Positions 3,481 to 53,952 of a stretch of 64,000 nucleotides of DNA are shown piece after piece; within the stretch, counting starts at the first letter, position 1; each line of letters opens with the position of its first letter. A program made the translations under genes and the position numbers. The notes below the pieces were generated by a model. It searched no databases and was not told the origin of the DNA. It saw only the letters and a program-made list of their open reading frames with translations. Origin of the DNA: Panorpa germanica (taxonomy: Eukaryota > Arthropoda > Insecta > Mecoptera > Panorpidae); assembly GCA_963678705.1 (NCBI GenBank), contig OY783203.1, forward strand, positions 1,612,001 through 1,676,000, given 5' to 3'.

Positions 3481-5233
3481 TCCTAAGTCTTTAAGAACCT
3501 ATTTCACTGTAGGAACGGTGTAAATTAATTCGACCCCGAGGCAAAAAGGTGGCATCAATCAAAATCCTGTCCATACTTATTTTACAACGTTAGAGATAAA
3601 AAATTAAGAGTTACATCTCATCGGGCACCAAGTTTGAGAACGTCAAACAATAAGAGTAGGCTATTTTAAGGAGAAGCGAAAGAATAACACGAATCTTTGA
3701 AATAAGCTGGGGCGCATCATCATCGCCTCTACAATAAATTTTTCTCTGGTACCAGCCCTAGTTAAACATTTATTTTACTTAAAATAATGATGAAATGTTA
3801 CATAAAAACTACTTACGTTTTACTACATTTATGTATAAAAAAATTTCATAAACAAAAGGAAAATTGTACATACATGTTTTTAGATGTATGCGTAATATGT
3901 AACGAACATATATGGCATTCTATATTAATATAGAACTAGAACTCTCTTAAAAATAAACTATCTTACGTATGGAACTAAACTAATTTTGTTTAGTATCAGA
4001 GAGGATTATAAAAAAATATTTCTTGAATTTCAGTGCCGTGGTTATCACATATTTAGGGGCCTCTAGCAGAGTTGGAGTTGGAATTAATGGGGATTTAGTT
4101 GGACTAAATACAGTTGAATTAAGCGTGAGAAAAAAAAAGACCGATTCTCAGACCGATTTTATGCTATAAGAGATGGTAGATATTACTACAAAATATATAT
4201 ACCCGCTATCACAAAACAGATATTAGTTTACATTCATATAATATTTTAGTAAAACAAAACCTCGTAATATTAATTCTAATAAGGTTTTGATTTAATATTT
4301 AATAACTATTTTAAAAATCTTTAAAATCCTTAAAAAAAAATTATAATTACGCTAATGGGCAAAAAGATAGACTTATTATTCAAAAAGTCGGAGAATAAGT
4401 CACAAAAATATGTATATTAGGTAACATTGTTTACGTAACAGGTATTGTTATGTTAAACTTTTAATACACATTTAAAACTGCGTTTAGCGGGTATAATATA
4501 TATACTTGTACTGAAATAACTCACAGAACAGAAACACTGTCTTAAGTGTGGCCAAACGTCGTTTCCAGTGATATTACAACAAATAGAATAAATAATATAT
4601 GTTTACTACACCACTGCCTACTGATGAATCTCATTATCATTCCACCAAACGAAAAAAGACGTTCTACTGGGAAACTTGAAAATATTTTAGTATGGATATT
4701 TATTTAAAGAATCTAAATTAGTATCATTAACTTTTAAATACTGCAACGTTTCTAGGTTTAGAAATTAGAAAATAGATATTTCATATTTTGTATTTGCATT
4801 TGAAGTACATATATTTCATAGTCATGTCATATCTCTGCATTTATAAAAGTTTTGATTGCGCGTGACAGATACATGACATGTTGTTGTTACATCATCGTGT
4901 TAATTGAAATTGTCATTCTGACGTTATTAATGCCATATTATACAACAAGAGACAATCATTTAAACATGAACATAACGATCACAGATTCAATGGCTCAATA
5001 TTCTAATAGCAGAACGGAAATTTTTAGTGTATATATTCTATTATTGAAACACTGGAAACGAAATATTCTTCACCGTTTATATTAATATTTAATACTACAT
5101 ATAGAATTTGTTTTGATATGTACACTAAATGGATTATTGGACTAAAATGGATTAATGATATTTCTATCTATACTATACTACATAATCTTAAAATTAAACT
5201 CACATTTAAGGTAAAAAGTACATTGGTATGTGT
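3481..5233. other. AT-rich intergenic stretch, no gene seen
   Basis: There is no supported gene. Two short inverted copies of a TATATA-ACCCGCT motif, near 4190 and 4485, could be worn ends of a small TA-flanked MITE, but the match stops after about 15 bases. The 3' UTR of the minus-strand zinc-finger gene must lie in the right-hand part. Confidence 0.4.
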
Positions 5234-18037: not shown

Positions 18038-39245
<21,208 letters not shown>

Positions 39246-41215: not shown

Positions 41216-44200
41216 TTAAATACTCTTTTTCATTGTGTCTATAAAATAAGCAATTGCTTTTAGGCTCTCTGTGTTTATATCTCTATCATTATCTGTCAAC
41301 AATAATAAACCCCTTTTACTAACTAACATTGGAGGAAATCTTCTTGTGTAGCTGTTATATTTTACAGTTGGATTTAACACGCATTTTTTTGATCCAATCG
41401 TTTCTTTTTTGTTATTAGATTTAACAATATCCGTTGATTCTGGCGAAGTGCTTTGCGGTAACGTCCTGAATTCTTCTATACCCTTCTCTACACCAACCTG
41501 TTCTATTGATTCTAATACAACTCGACACTTTGGTAATGATTCATAAAGTGCTATACTCTGCAAACTAAGTTGTGAAGAGGGTGAATTTACCGAAGAATGG
41601 GTCCTGTCTTCCATTTCAATATCTTCTTCAGAACTTAGTATAAAGTCTGAATCTATATCTGCAACACTCGTTATACATTCTGCATTGTTTGAACTTAAAT
41701 TAACTGAGACCAGTGTCATATTGATTGTGTTGTCTATTCCATCTGGAGGTTCTGTTTTTAAAGGACTCGTTAACGATTCAGAACTGCAATCATCTGAGGA
41801 TATATCTATAACTTCTAGAGCTCGTAGTTTGGAAGATTGTTCGGTATTTGACAATTCTACAATATCGTTGTCCCATGTTCTATTATTTTCAGATTGAAAT
41901 AATAACTCAACTGCATCAGTTTCCATTGACGTTTTATCTATACTAGTTGACAATGATTCAACAAATTCATTATCATTATCTGGAGTCTGCTCACTGACAT
42001 AACGTAAATTAAATTGGCTTAAAGGAATTACTGTACTGCTGTCAGTACTTGAAGCATTAAGACTTACATTATTTGTTTTGTTCAGTACAGTTGCATCAGA
42101 ACTAATCTCCGTTATTTCATGAACTATATTTAATTTACAATTAAAATTAACTTTGCGTTTTGCTTGCACTTCATTTGTTATAGATATGCCAGTTTGTGTA
42201 GATTGTGTTAAAGGCAAATCATTATCTGTAGCATTAATATCACTCGTATTGATATGTATGTCTGTAATATTGCACTTATCTCTTAAAGTGATGTCTCCAG
42301 ATTGAAGATCTGTTTGGCATGCCACTTCCATTGTTTTACAGCCTTTACTTACTAAACTTGCACGGTTTATTGAAGAACTAAGAAACACTTGCCAAGGTTG
42401 TATACGGCTTAATTTATTTTTAAGTCTAAGTTGATTGTCATCCATATCTATAAATCTATTAATATTTTTTGGCGGTTGAGAGCTCAGTAGTTGTGAATTT
42501 GGTAAGGTGGAAATGGGCTGACTTGACTGAGTATTTTCTACATATTCTATATTTTGTGTACTAGCTGTCATAGGGATGAACTCAGATTGTGTGATAGATA
42601 AATCAAAGGTATTTTGCGATGCTTGATATTCTTTTCTTTTTGGATTTGTAATGTTTTCTTCTGTGTTACAACATGGGGAAAATTCATCAAAATCATTAGG
42701 TGTTGAAGAGATTATTTCACTTTGCACTGCTGTTCGCTTATCAACTGTTGGTAAATTGAGTTCAGATATTTGCGGAACATCAATCACTATTTCTTCATGT
42801 CTGGGTTCCAGAGTTAAATCTTGAGAAGCAAGTGGGATTTTGCTATTATTAACCCTATGTAATACACCTCTTTTTAACGCTTCATTACAAACATATTCAT
42901 TCTGACATATTGGATACACACATTTAGGGTTCATCATTTTCACAAAATCATCTATATTTTGAGGCGAAAAAATGTCATCATATGTAATGAAATACATTCC
43001 AATTTCTTTAAGATTACTTTCCGACAAGGTATAGTCTAAGGTAGGGAATAAAGTGATGATTTTTTTAGTTTTATAACGTCTGAAAAAGTTTATAAATAAT
43101 TTATTTTATTTATATATATTAACAACAAGTTTTATTAATCTAACTAATTCAAATCTGCGTTACCTTTCAATGTCCGACAATATAACTGTATTGTTCCAAA
43201 CTACTCTAATAGTATCAGATCTATTCTCACTGAAGTATTGGATTAAGCCAGCACTCTTAAATGATTGTAATCTATTGGAGCCCGGAAAAACCTTTATACC
43301 AGCTTTAGCAATTCCAAACATTAATTGCTCCATGCCCCAAATTGGCGCTGATAGTACAAACTGGTAATTGCTATTATTTCTGAAACGAAGAAATTATTAA
43401 ATATTACTTCTATATGATATAGAGTAAGATTCAAGACTATCTGTCATATTCTGTCTTTTCTTAATATTTCGAATTTATTTCTTCAGTTATTTTTATATAT
43501 TTTTGATCATATTACACATCTAACTCCTTAGTCTTAAATAATACAGTCTTAATTTCTATAAACCATGTCTTAATTTCTATAAAACTGTACTATATATTAT
43601 TAAAGTTTGTTACCAGAACTTTAAATGTCCAATTATTTCTTAACAACTCCTGATAATTTAGGAAATATTAACAATTAAAGAAGTCGTTTTTTTTACTTTA
43701 ATTATTAAAGGATTCCATCGTTATAGAAAATTCCAATACATGGTACGTTACATGCAATAAATTTGCCATCTCTTTTATACAACAGAGACGCATACGAATG
43801 TGTGTGTGATACGTCGTTACTACTAACAGCTGAGTTGTGTATTCCATGAAGTATTATATAACTAAGGCTGCGAACAAGGAAAAATAATTTCCATTATTTA
43901 TTACTATTTATTTCTTCTAAAAAAGAAGCAAAACTGAAATTCAATTTTTTTTGTTATGGCTCAAAGTCATCAAGGGAAAAAATAAAAAATTTAAAATTTT
44001 TCAGTGGTAGCGGGCACTGAGAGACAAAAACTTAGAACATCTTATTAGTCCATTATAATAATGTACATCTCTGCTTCAAATTCAAGTGACATATAGATAT
44101 TACTTACTTTACAATATTCTTTACTTGTTCAACAGCAAGATCGGTTGAAAAATCAATTGGCAATCCCATTGCAGTATTGTCTATGTATAGAGTATCAATA

Positions 44201-45067
44201 ATTTCATTTTCTCCTAAAGACAATAAAAAGTTATTTTCAAGCAAGGCCGACTCAAATCGAAAACAGCCAGTATAAAAAATTGTTTCATTAGGACCTGTAA
44301 TTAAAGAACGAAAAACTATAGAGGCTTTTATTGTCACATTATAAAAATGTTAAAATTCAAGGATGTAAAAGTACATTTAAATAGGAACATAACACTGCCA
44401 TCAGCATTTTCCGTAGGACACAGCGTTACAGTAATTGTTATTCTGTTCACAAATATAGCTGTTGGTTCATACGGTTTTATAGCTTTTAGGAATTTATGAT
44501 CCACCTGAAACAATACATTATTGTGTGTTTCATTTCTTTCTGATATCATTAACAAATAAAACATATTTACACATTTAAGTTTATGTTTACCTTTGTAATG
44601 CGCTTTAAAATGTTGATGTTATGTTCTGAAGAATATATTTGTGAAGTGAACTGTCCATCTATTAAGGTATTCATTGTTTCGATATCCAGTCGTGTTAGAA
44701 AATGTGCATAAGGCTGTAATTTGAAAAATTACCTAATTAGTGTTATATCCTAAATAGTAACATAAATAATTTTCAGTGCCTTTAGTACCTAGTTTAAACT
44801 AGGCCTCTATATATAGACGCTAGATATATATTTATTTTCCACAAATTTTGTAACTTACCACACACTGTACTGAAATACATATTGAGGAAAATGCAAAACA
44901 ACAATGTTTTCAGCTAATATACTGTAGTCGTGAGCAACACAGATAAATTTGATATTATTAAATTGTTAAGTTGACAAAATAGTATTGTTTTTAAAGAGTC
45001 GTATACTTACTTTATTGTTTTTCCAACAATTAACGGCAATATACTCATTTATGATATTTCCCTCCAT
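41216..45067 (-). CDS. DCLRE1B-like: SNM1B/Apollo (DCLRE1B) homologue lacking the nuclease motifs, 858 aa
   Basis: Apollo is a metallo-beta-lactamase/beta-CASP 5' exonuclease of telomere end processing and crosslink repair. Minus-strand exons: 45011-45067, 44591-44713, 44375-44504, 44108-44294, 43164-43379 and 41216-43079. All phases agree. Fold landmarks match animal Apollo in order: IAVNCW, GSVMFLF (96-102), FYTGCFR (110-116), IDTLYIDNT (136-144) and a strand ending in CVYPI (about 290). The metal ligands are gone: HxHxDH is RLDIET (27-32), the NHCPGS histidine is N93, the TGDFR aspartate is C114, and SDHSS reads DDIFS (272-276). From about 290 onward is an acidic Ser/Thr/Asn-rich tail with no domain I know. 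It includes VIDISSDD (661-668), a SUMO-interacting-type motif. The long open frame and clean splice sites argue against a pseudogene. I expect a non-catalytic scaffold. Confidence 0.83.
43561..43865. repeat. Dispersed repeat family R, copy 1
   Basis: This copy lies in intron 4 of the Apollo-like gene. It shares AACCATGTCTTAATTTCTAT, AAAACTGTACTATATATT, ACATGGTACGT and the block GCCATCTCTTTTATACAACAG with copies near 50573-50790 and 60301-60545. No ORF or defined ends were found. Confidence 0.7.
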
Positions 45068-45726: not shown

Positions 45727-47913
45727 ATGGGGACATGTTATGGGCGCTGTTTTAAACGTCGGGATAGTTTATCAAGGTTTGTTCATTTTTCCACTCGGAG
45801 CTGGGACTTTATTAAATATATTACTTGATATTTAGATATTTTATGCCTGCAACATCATTTCAAATTAGTAAAATATATTTTTAGGAGTGCTCATCATCGA
45901 TTGAGTTTGTCGAATACAATGGATGATATTACAGTTGCCAATGAGGTGTGTCATAAATATTGGTTTTTAAATGAAGTACATATATTATAACAAATTTAAT
46001 ATAATTGAACATGTTTATAGATATTGATTGACTGTAGGATGAAAAATAGTTCGAGGTAACAACCCTATTTTTACATTACTTGGAATCAGCTAATACGTAA
46101 TTTTGGTTCATTTTTGATTAATATTTTTTTCTTTTTTGCCTTCTGGAAAAGTTTTGTCTCTCGCTATTTTAAGAAGAATAAAATACGTGGAGAGGTAAAA
46201 ATCAAAGTTGTTTAAATGAATATAAATCACTGTTTCACAAAAATTCAATTCTATACCTGTTAAACACAGTTACATGTTAATGTTAAGATTTACTTAACAT
46301 TAAAGAAGTTACTTTTATGTAAAAAATAACGTTTTGTTACCTATTTTATTGCTATTAACAAAGGGACTTTTTCTAGTTTAGAAGAATCATAAAACGTTCT
46401 ATTTGGATTAGTAAAATCATTTTTAAGAATTAAAACGGGCATACGAAGACTTTTGTCTCTTTAGAATCATAAAATAAAATGACCAAAATTTAAACCTTTT
46501 CAAATTAAATATTGATAAGATTTCAAATAACTTAAATGTTGCTAGTATTTAAGATAATATACATGTTTTGTGTTTAGAAGGTATCTACACACAGCATCCG
46601 ACAATTGACTTGACAACAACTAAACAAACATGGATAAAGTCATGCACTGCTTTTGAACGAGTGTTATGTCGCAGATTTAAATAAAACGTGATATTGTAAT
46701 TTTATATATATACATCTATTCATATAGTAACCAAACAGGAGTACGAATTAATTGCTACTTACGATTTTAGTAATGTATCTCATAGCATGATCAAACCTAA
46801 AGTAGTAATTTGTTCCTAACTCATTCCGGCTATATATATCGTCCAACCAAGTAATCTCCGTTACATTTCGCCATAAATCAACTATTTTCCGGAGATCATA
46901 TTTAGTAAATATTATACACGCTACTTGTAGTTTTATACAATTTAATTTGCGTTTGTTACAAATATAATTATTTTGTGCAAGAAATGTAACAGTGGTTCAT
47001 ATTTATAAATATATCCATCTTTGCACATATGTGTATATTCTAGAAAAAACGCCTCGATTTAATGGAAGATTTTTGGGGTGCACCAAATGAAACATCATAT
47101 ACAAGGTTTAATAATGGGCAATCAAATTCTTCAACCGCGTAAGTATTTTTGTATATAAGTAATAATAATATATACATATTGTATTCATATATTTTATATC
47201 GGAATGAAAATTTAAAATTTAAGGTCAGGAACAGATATTCAACTTCAATGCTTAGACGTTGGAAATTTGCTCACGTCTAAAGGTCCATGTACGCATTTGT
47301 TAGGGAGAGATAATGGTTTAACTAATCTGTCAACACCGGCTAGCTCTTTAGACTTAGAATGGGAACACGAATACAATTCTAATAATAATCATCCGTGGTA
47401 ATTATTTTATTTTTATTGTATAAGTAATATGGAATTCTGAATTACACTAATAGTAATGCTAATGAACAATTTCGTGAATTTTCTACTGAGGATATGCATA
47501 TATCTGATCAAATAAATAAGCTCTAGAATAGCACTGTTAAGTCCTAATTTTTATAAAATAATAATAGTTTGAATGGATTCCTATTTTTATAAGAATAGGT
47601 AAATGAATGCCGTTGATATCGCATTAACGATTCGCATGCATAAAAGGTTCCAGCTTTTATTAGATACATTTATTTCCATAGGACTGTACTCCCTGAAGAT
47701 GAATATGTTGATATTTTACCCGAAGCTAGTACAGCAACTGCAACAGTAGCTTCAGGTTGGTCTCATATTTCAACTCCAGACTCTTTGGAATGGGATCCTG
47801 TTGAACCTAATTTTGAAGAATCTGCTTTGGATGCAGATACAGAGAAATTATTAAATGAAATTGAAAGACTGACAAATCAAGTTTTACAAGAAACTGGAAA
47901 TGGTAACAGCTGA
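45727..47913 (+). CDS. AP1AR: AP-1 complex-associated regulatory protein (gadkin)-like adaptor, 203 aa
   Basis: Gadkin links AP-1 coated endosomes to kinesin-1 and Arp2/3. Exons: 45727-45776, 45885-45945, 47044-47138, 47224-47397 and 47682-47913. Phases agree, and the sum is 203 codons plus stop. The N-terminus MGTCYGRCFKRR fits N-myristoylation at Gly2 with nearby palmitoylated cysteines, as in vertebrate AP1AR (MGNCCWTQCF). SSLDLEWEHEY and DSLEWDPVEP resemble the two acidic tryptophan motifs of AP1AR (SLDLEWEDEE and GLEWENDF). It is shorter than the human protein (about 302 aa), and the basic coiled coil that binds AP-1 is not evident. Either this lineage lost it or an exon in the 1.1-kb intron 2 was missed. 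The identification rests on short motifs, so it is tentative. Confidence 0.62.
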
Positions 47914-51680: not shown

Positions 51681-53952
51681 ATGTATAAAAAACTGTGCTG
51701 CCAATTTTGGATATTTGCACTTTTGTTGATTCATTTGGAGCAGATACCGTCAGAAGCCATAGGATATTGTTCAATTTATAATGGAAAGGTTCGTTAAAAC
51801 ATTTTTGTGTTCAACTTATGTGCATTTATTATGTACATTTGCTAAAACATGGTAAGTATACTGATTATGATTATTCTTAATGCTAATTGGTATTTGTTTT
51901 TAGGTTTGTAAGAACTACCTTAAACGATCTAGACTAGTTTGGTATAATATGTCAACTGATAGTAATAGCGGAGAACTTAATGAGCAGATCACTTCTGGTT
52001 TGTGGGACGAGATGATAGTTGGTTTAACAGAACCTTGTCGAAGTGCAGCTGAGGTTTATATATTGTTCTTGTTTGTAGCCACATAAAAAATTCCAATTAA
52101 TTACTTAACTAATTTATTTAATTTTCAGAAATTATTATGTTTATATGCATTCCCACAGTGTGAATATGAAAATGATAATCCTGTTGGATTGCCACTATGC
52201 TATCAAGATTGCATTGCAGTTAGGCAACAATTTTGCTATAACGAATGGGCGTTAATTGAAGATAAGAACCAACGTGGAATCCACTTTAAATCAAAGAAAC
52301 ATTTTACATTACCCATATGTGAAACATTGCCTAAATTTAATCGCGATGATAAAAAATCTGTTTGTTCATCGGCTGGGCTAACAGAAATAAAACAAGATGA
52401 AATAACAGGTATAATATAATAATGCATCTTATATTCAAAGATATAAGATACATTTATGTGTTATTTATAGATAATTGTCGAAATGGAAACGGCAGATTTT
52501 ACATGGGAACAGTGAACACCACTTACACTGGCATACCTTGTCAACATTGGAATTCACAAAAACCACATTCCCACGTGAGACCACCTGACGTCTTTCCAGA
52601 AGTTCAAAATGCAGAAAATTACTGTCGGAATGCAGGAGGTGAAGAACCATCTCCTTGGTGTTATACTATGGATGTAAATGTTCGCTGGCAGAGATGTGAA
52701 ATACCATTATGCGGTAACAAAGTAGTTAAGTCAAGCACATATATATGTATATTTTTTTAATAATATTTCTATTATAGCAAATTCTACTGAAGAGAGCACT
52801 GACAGCAAGAAAATTTCTATGGAGACATTTTTTACGCCTACATTCATTTTTATATTAGCCGGTGTTGGATTTGCAGCTATTGTTGTTATATTGCTGATTG
52901 TACTATTATGCCATCGATTTTTTTATCATAAACGACAAATAGTCATGGGATACGATCAGACAGCAACTCAAGAAGTAAACATAGACTTGGATAAACTTCC
53001 AAGTAATATGGCATACCATAGAACAGGAGCTCAACTGAATCCAAAACTAGAAAAACTTGAGTTTCCAAGGAATAATATTATCTATATGAGAGATTTAGGT
53101 CAAGGAGCGTTTGGTAGAGTTTTTCAAGCTAAAGCTCCTGGTTTAGTTAACGAAGAAGAATTTACTTTGGTAGCTGTTAAAATGCTGAAAGATGAGGCAT
53201 CACAAGATCTACAGGTTGATTTTGAAAGAGAAGCCTGTTTGTTAGCTGAGTTTGATCACCCTAATATTGTTAAACTACTTGGTGTTTGTGCTATAGGACG
53301 ACCTATGTGTTTATTATTTGAGTACATGGGACGAGGTGATTTAAATGAGTTTCTACGTTCTTGTTCGCCTGGCAACTATGTTGTTCACAGTGTGCATCCA
53401 GAAGAAACCGAAATGTTTAGAGATGTACAATTGTCTCACATGGATCTGCTTAATGTTGCACAGCAAGTTTCAGCTGGAATGGTATACCTCTCTGATAGAA
53501 AATTTGTTCATAGAGATTTGGCAACCAGAAATTGTTTAATAGATGACGATATGGTTGTTAAAATTGCGGATTTCGGTTTGTCACAGAAAATCTATTTGCA
53601 AGATTATTATAAGGGAGATGAACATGATGCAATACCAGTTCGCTGGATGCCACTCGAGAGTATTTTGTATAACAAATACACGCTAGAGTCCGATGTGTGG
53701 GCATTTGGAGTGTGCCTATGGGAAATATTTTCCTTTGCTCTTCAACCCTATTATGGAATGACGCATGAGGAAGTAGTGAAATTTATTAAAGAGGGAAATA
53801 TGTTAGGTTGTCCGGAAAATACACCAGTAGATGTTTATGACCTGATGAAATCATGTTGGCATCTCAAACCTACTGGTAGACCGTCGTTTCGGTCTATATA
53901 TCAAAAATTATATGATATTCAGAAGGACTTAGAACGACGCCTAACAGAGTAA
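51681..53952 (+). CDS. Nrk: Frizzled-kringle receptor tyrosine kinase, Nrk/Ror2 type (MuSK-like), 651 aa
   Basis: This single-pass receptor kinase belongs to the Ror/MuSK group (Wnt-type co-receptor ectodomain, neural in flies). Exons: 51681-51788, 51904-52053, 52129-52408, 52471-52713 and 52778-53952, with phases consistent. The signal peptide covers about residues 1-26. A Frizzled cysteine-rich domain spans about 30-165 and a kringle domain 182-260 (CRNG ... PWCYT ... CEIPLC). The membrane helix is at about 282-305. The kinase spans about 360-635: GQGAFG 368-373, VAVK lysine 395, HRD 505-507, DFG 525-527 and activation-loop tyrosines 533, 537 and 538 (YLQDYY). The whole kinase lies in one exon. 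The juxtamembrane [16 protein letters not shown] and kinase match MuSK more closely than Ror1. There is no Ig domain, as in fly Ror and Nrk. Poly(A) signals are at 54107 and 54130. Confidence 0.95.

Follow-up and report, generated by a model that had tools for sequence, protein, structure and literature searches.

The window analysed here is a 64,000-nucleotide stretch of contig C21 in the Panorpa germanica genome assembly (464 Mb, 249 contigs), and it holds several genes besides the one on which we focused. A Pfam scan covering ten exon-sized frames of the window gave matches to C2H2 zinc-finger, TTC39-type TPR and PHD-finger frames elsewhere in it. The window also contains AAA and M41 peptidase frames, which we take to be YME1L-like, as well as a receptor gene, presumably ROR/Nrk-like, with kringle and tyrosine-kinase exons (52401-53952, plus strand). 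A non-LTR retroelement (31256-35951, plus strand) consists of an ORF1-like frame without a Pfam match, followed by endonuclease and reverse-transcriptase frames (Pfam frames at ~32.6-36 kb) that are parted by a stop at 34146-34148; this is also the part of the window with the lowest CpG.

The gene under study occupies the minus strand from 45067, the A of its ATG, to 41216, the final base of its stop codon, with six exons, five GT-AG introns and an uninterrupted frame for an 858-amino-acid product; the coordinates and the number of exons are exactly those originally predicted. Exon 1 (45011..45067, start codon at 45065-45067) encodes MEGN..IAVNCW and is followed by exon 2 (44591..44713), exon 3 (44375..44504) with a conserved GSVMFLF, exon 4 (44108..44294), exon 5 (43164..43379), which encodes part of the beta-CASP region, and exon 6 (41216..43079, stop codon at 41216-41218), which completes the core and then encodes a 538-residue, S-, T- and N-rich tail. 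An in-frame stop is found 5' of the ATG and an AATAAA lies ~260 bases past the stop codon. All five splice-site pairs are intact and the gene has none of the frame or splice damage that characterises pseudogenes, so that a broken gene could be ruled out. By eye, a small multi-exon gene (45918-47900, plus strand) starts ~0.85 kb away in head-to-head orientation, and the two genes may share a promoter region.

The first ~300 residues of the product form an MBL/beta-CASP core that is recognisable by sequence. Its best match was human Apollo/SNM1B (residues 37-297, E 1.4e-15, 60 bits), ahead of human Artemis (E 6e-6, 29 bits) and SNM1A (E 1e-5, 28 bits), and GSVMFLF, YTG-FR, LY-DNT and the end of the beta-CASP region share the order and spacing of Apollo, in agreement with the Apollo-like core that had been proposed. 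Pfam-A recognised no domain in the protein, neither MBL nor beta-CASP, and domain-based annotation would thus overlook this gene. When the core was searched against 5.8 billion proteins, an oyster Apollo (E 8.8e-13) was the sole match among 2234 scored candidates; an alignment-based search returned five proteins, of which two are oyster Apollo, one comes from a plant, one from a cockroach and one is unnamed, and a third protein search returned 0 matches among 145 candidates. The E values with the human and the oyster Apollo exclude a chance resemblance. We refer to the plant, cockroach and unnamed proteins as SNM1A-like: the unnamed and plant proteins group with SNM1A in our tree, from which the cockroach one was left out. 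Beyond these matches, none of the three protein searches found an orthologue of the gene. The deposited cockroach (Diploptera punctata) SNM1A-like protein is itself without the MBL motif-2 region, perhaps because its annotation is incomplete and not because the region was truly lost.

The positions of the catalytic ligands were taken from PMC8450094 and PMC4678830 and mapped onto the protein by alignment with five references (human Apollo, two oyster Apollo and two SNM1A-like proteins). In this alignment, all six metal ligands and the general-acid histidine of active SNM1 nucleases are replaced. Numbered as human Apollo to window protein, the motif 1 aspartate in exon 1 is changed (D14 to N13), as are the four ligands of motif 2 in exon 2, where HxHxDH has become RLDIET (residues 27-32, 44675..44692; H31 to R27, H33 to D29, D35 to E31 and H36 to T32), the motif 3 histidine in exon 3 (H99 to N93, 44406-44408), the motif 4 aspartate in exon 4 (D120 to C114, 44263-44265) and the general acid in exon 6 (H276 to I274), which lies in the former motif B, where SDHSS now reads DDIFS (residues 272-276, 42965..42979). 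One automatic alignment placed DIETMN instead of RLDIET at the HxHxDH position that three others agreed on, and the ligand set is lost either way. In the phosphate pocket, K186 is M182 (exon 5), S258 is L252 and S274 is D272. Three active-site positions are retained: D145 as D142 (motif A, 44179-44181), T257 as T251 and D275 as D273. The substitutions RLDIET, N93, C114 and DDIFS named in the original prediction are thus all present, and its broader statement that every nuclease motif had been replaced holds for the six ligands and the acid histidine and is overstated in the word "every", given that D142, D273 and T251 are kept.

The replacements are concentrated at the active site. The five references, whose effective number is smaller than five because the two oyster rows are near-identical, share 61 invariant columns; among these, the window protein kept none of ten listed active-site columns compared to 29 of 51 others (Fisher p 0.0009). 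That list omitted two active-site positions that are kept, and the difference was 2/12 versus 27/49 (p 0.024) once D145 and T257 were counted, and 0/7 versus 29/54 (p 0.011) for the six ligands and the acid histidine alone. In Artemis, the H33A, H35D and D37A proteins are described as keeping their fold and losing one or both metals together with activity (PMC8450076); the equivalent of H35D is precisely what the window protein carries at H33 (D29), and its other ligand positions are changed too. The activity of Apollo H276A is described as negligible (PMC8450094). Judged from these residues, the protein is predicted to be catalytically dead.

Searches of the whole assembly with the DRMBL family and with Apollo uncovered two genes beyond the one in the window: an Artemis gene on contig C4 (best match Artemis, E 1.4e-52) with HCHTDH, GHCPG, TGDFR and SSHAS motifs, and an SNM1A gene on contig C7 (E 3.6e-75) whose motifs read HYHADH, TGDFR and SEHSS, together with an NHCPG that spans a splice. 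From these motifs, both are predicted to be active. Neither these searches nor one with the core found a second Apollo in the genome: at E up to 1, the core matched only itself and Artemis (1.1e-5), and exon 6 is present in one copy. A second Apollo or near copy could thus be ruled out, which leaves the dead gene as the sole Apollo candidate found. An active second DCLRE1A/B gene had been suggested as something to look for; the intact SNM1A is a candidate for its DCLRE1A half, and no second Apollo emerged. The idea that the protein may partner an active Apollo paralogue consequently found no candidate in the genome, even though SNM1A and Artemis are both present with intact motifs.

The tail (final 538 residues, 321-858), in which L and I are also abundant, was scanned for five motif types: SUMO-interaction, TRF2-docking, nuclear-localisation, S/T-P and S/T-Q. 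Twelve S/T-Q sites were found where 6.1 were expected (p 0.0065, for a motif type that was singled out among the five after its count was known). Seven of them fall within 48 residues (392, 401, 412, 421, 424, 433 and 438; 42476..42619). Such a density, seven in a 50-residue window, was reached in 0/4000 shuffles of the whole protein and 0/4000 shuffles of the tail, and seven in a 100-residue window in 0/4000 and 8/4000, respectively. The cluster also stood out when only residues 361-460 were shuffled so as to keep local composition (p 0.0004). Comparison proteins (residues 1-760 of the animal's own SNM1A, its own Artemis, the two oyster Apollo, and the cockroach and unnamed SNM1A-like proteins) never exceeded three S/T-Q in 50 residues, a density that their own shuffles also attain; those reaching this minimal threshold include the own SNM1A and the cockroach protein. 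Published thresholds for SQ/TQ clusters are 3 in 100 or 3 in 50 residues, and such clusters mark many ATM/ATR substrates (PMC3564818, PMC4705472), with the loose definition fitting > 25% of yeast proteins (PMC3564818). With 7 predicted sites in 48 residues, the tail lies well above the at least 3 in 50 that define an SQ/TQ cluster domain, and in this it resembles the ATM/ATR substrates that carry one. SUMO-interaction motifs were not significantly enriched in the tail (3 compared to 1.6 expected, with 239/1000 shuffles as high).

Two AlphaFold models of the protein, built from 6 and 4 sequences, were poor (mean pLDDT 52.5 each). Using these weak models, Foldseek, whose scoring also uses sequence letters, ranked human Apollo at the top (E 1.4e-16 and 2.3e-13), with a whole-chain TM of ~0.35 for both. 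Both the secondary structure and the Foldseek matches at local scale are consistent with an MBL/beta-CASP fold and, considering the low pLDDT, the low TM and the letter-aware scoring, this fold is supported locally only.

A role in telomere complexes had also been envisaged, and this part of the original prediction has so far found no support. The TRF2-docking motif has the pattern Y/F-x-L-x-P. This motif, expected at the C-terminus of a shelterin accessory factor, was absent from residues 321-858. Telomeric repeats themselves were elusive: no (TTAGG)7 was found in the 464 Mb assembly, TCAGG arrays were not found in it either, and (TTAGG)5 gave two matches compared to three for the reversed control. 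None of the six contig ends examined (from three contigs) had telomeric repeats, two of them being 295-bp and 443-bp satellites, and a TERT-RBD search of the genome returned one match that was sub-threshold and stop-ridden. Chromosome ends may be missing from the assembly, and such a search could overlook a TERT that is split and diverged, so the absence of these repeats is only suggestive: non-canonical telomeres are one possible explanation, an assembly without ends the other.

We then weighed four other explanations for an Apollo-like gene without its ligands. A gene-model or assembly artefact masking a normal enzyme is hardly credible. The gene model is known from genomic sequence alone, which leaves some room for it, but the ligands and the acid are lost across four separate exons, exon 6 is single-copy, no second Apollo match was found and no alternative HxHxDH, NHCPG, TGDF or SDHS is present in any frame near the locus. 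Indeed, in a six-frame translation of the window HxHxDH occurred a single time, at 4965 on the plus strand, and no frame held NHCPG, TGDF or an SDHS-like motif (a splice-split motif would escape such a scan). No overlooked exon is thus seen near the locus, and a hidden HxHxDH exon, which had been named as what would overturn the original prediction, could be ruled out. It is also improbable, if less so, that the active site was remodelled, with D29, E31, N93, C114, D142 and D272 binding another metal so that a different substrate is cut or bound. Two of the four motif 2 ligand positions are acidic (D29 and E31), the motif A aspartate is kept and PMC10211241 mentions pseudoenzymes with migrated residues; this must be set against the loss of the bridging aspartate and of five histidines (four ligands and the general acid), against a phosphate pocket whose K186, S258 and S274 are now M, L and D, and against the loss of active-site metals described for Artemis H35D (PMC8450076). 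Somewhat more plausible, yet still unlikely in our judgement, is that the gene is a fast-evolving Artemis or SNM1A duplicate that resembles Apollo rather than its orthologue. In a ten-row tree, the protein joined Apollo with a support of just 71/72, without nesting within the human and oyster Apollos. A pairing with human Apollo alone had a p-AU of 0.030, and neither a grouping with SNM1A (p-AU 0.187) nor one with Artemis (0.314) was rejected. Diagnostic columns were matched at 9/43 for Apollo, 6/30 for Artemis and 2/19 for SNM1A, and the sole other match of the core in its own genome was Artemis. Against a duplicate, the bit score with human Apollo is twice that with Artemis or SNM1A, a sister position to the own-genome SNM1A was rejected (p-AU 0.004) and one to the own Artemis nearly so (0.066), and the protein starts directly at its MBL domain and has the Apollo-like residues W15 and N143. 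Apollo orthology thus follows from best match and elimination, with the placement in the tree unsettled.

The main rival is that the gene is on its way out: the Apollo function would have been dropped, constraint would be weak and the open frame would be a leftover. We hold this to be rather unlikely, although it deserves more weight than the three explanations above. The branch leading to the gene is extreme (5.85 changes per column, compared to 1.32 for the own SNM1A and 1.84 for the own Artemis), which could be expected under weak constraint and equally under a new role; the core has diverged beyond Pfam recognition; and, as TTAGG and TCAGG arrays were not found in the assembly, the task for which Apollo is best known may have disappeared. 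On the other hand, neutral simulations of the coding sequence left it free of stops in 62/300 runs at 0.01 substitutions per site, in 9/300 runs at 0.02 (when ~5% of residues had changed) and in 0/300 runs from 0.05 upward. Changing all ten listed active-site residues would thus take many more substitutions than an unconstrained frame tolerates. This modelling argues that plain neutral decay does not fit and speaks for the earlier claim that the gene is maintained, as an argument from one sequence that is no substitute for dN/dS. Five intact splice-site pairs, a loss concentrated at the active site with 29/51 other invariant positions kept, and the SQ/TQ cluster in the tail also speak against a gene on its way out.

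On balance, we consider it fairly probable that the gene encodes an Apollo that has lost catalysis and is retained as a scaffold under the control of DNA-damage kinases. According to this scaffold model, the core would still fold and serve as a docking surface, ATM/ATR-type kinases would phosphorylate the tail upon DNA damage, and the phosphorylated tail would recruit or regulate repair factors, while SNM1A, Artemis or another nuclease would do any cutting. The enzyme side of Apollo would then have been lost and its adaptor and signalling side kept. The pseudo-nuclease kept for repair scaffolding that was initially proposed thus gains from the Apollo-like core, the lost ligands, the open frame and the clue of a seven-site SQ/TQ cluster, with neither its telomere role nor its active Apollo partner supported so far.

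Dead beta-CASP proteins have precedents in RNA processing, where INTS9 and CPSF100 are described as such (PMC7980224). Like these partners of INTS11 and CPSF73, the window protein combines an MBL/beta-CASP core with a lost HxHxDH (NYHC in INTS9; PMC7980224), and its inactive-looking core sits in an intact gene. Unlike it, INTS9 and CPSF100 act in RNA-processing heterodimers and have C-terminal dimerisation domains, whereas the window protein has no Pfam domain and no active Apollo twin was found for it. Compared to SNM1B/Apollo, which is its best sequence match and with which it shares motif order, spacing and an N-terminal MBL start, it differs by its replaced ligands and acid histidine, its long tail bearing the SQ/TQ cluster and its missing TRF2-docking motif; SNM1A and SNM1C/Artemis belong to the same superfamily but are weaker matches and keep their active site. 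A search of the open-access literature returned no paper in which SNM1B appears together with pseudoenzyme or pseudonuclease, and no dead SNM1 DNA-repair protein was among the matches listed (titles and abstract starts, with most subscription journals outside coverage). What is new here is the seven-site SQ/TQ cluster in the tail of an Apollo-like protein, dead beta-CASP proteins being known already.

The observation itself, an intact Apollo-like gene with lost active-site residues, is real. We advance only tentatively, and with clearly less confidence than the scaffold model, that in the lineage of this animal Apollo, formerly a 5' exonuclease of telomeres, became a scaffold that does not cut and is phosphorylated by ATM/ATR, and that canonical telomere repeats were lost in parallel. 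If true, this conversion would be a natural separation of Apollo signalling from its nuclease. For mammalian Apollo, nuclease-deficient mutants are described as having given differing results on a role beyond cutting, including a partial repression of telomere fusion (PMC5564657). A natural dead Apollo beside intact-looking SNM1A and Artemis would be evolution's own experiment on what Apollo does beyond cutting.
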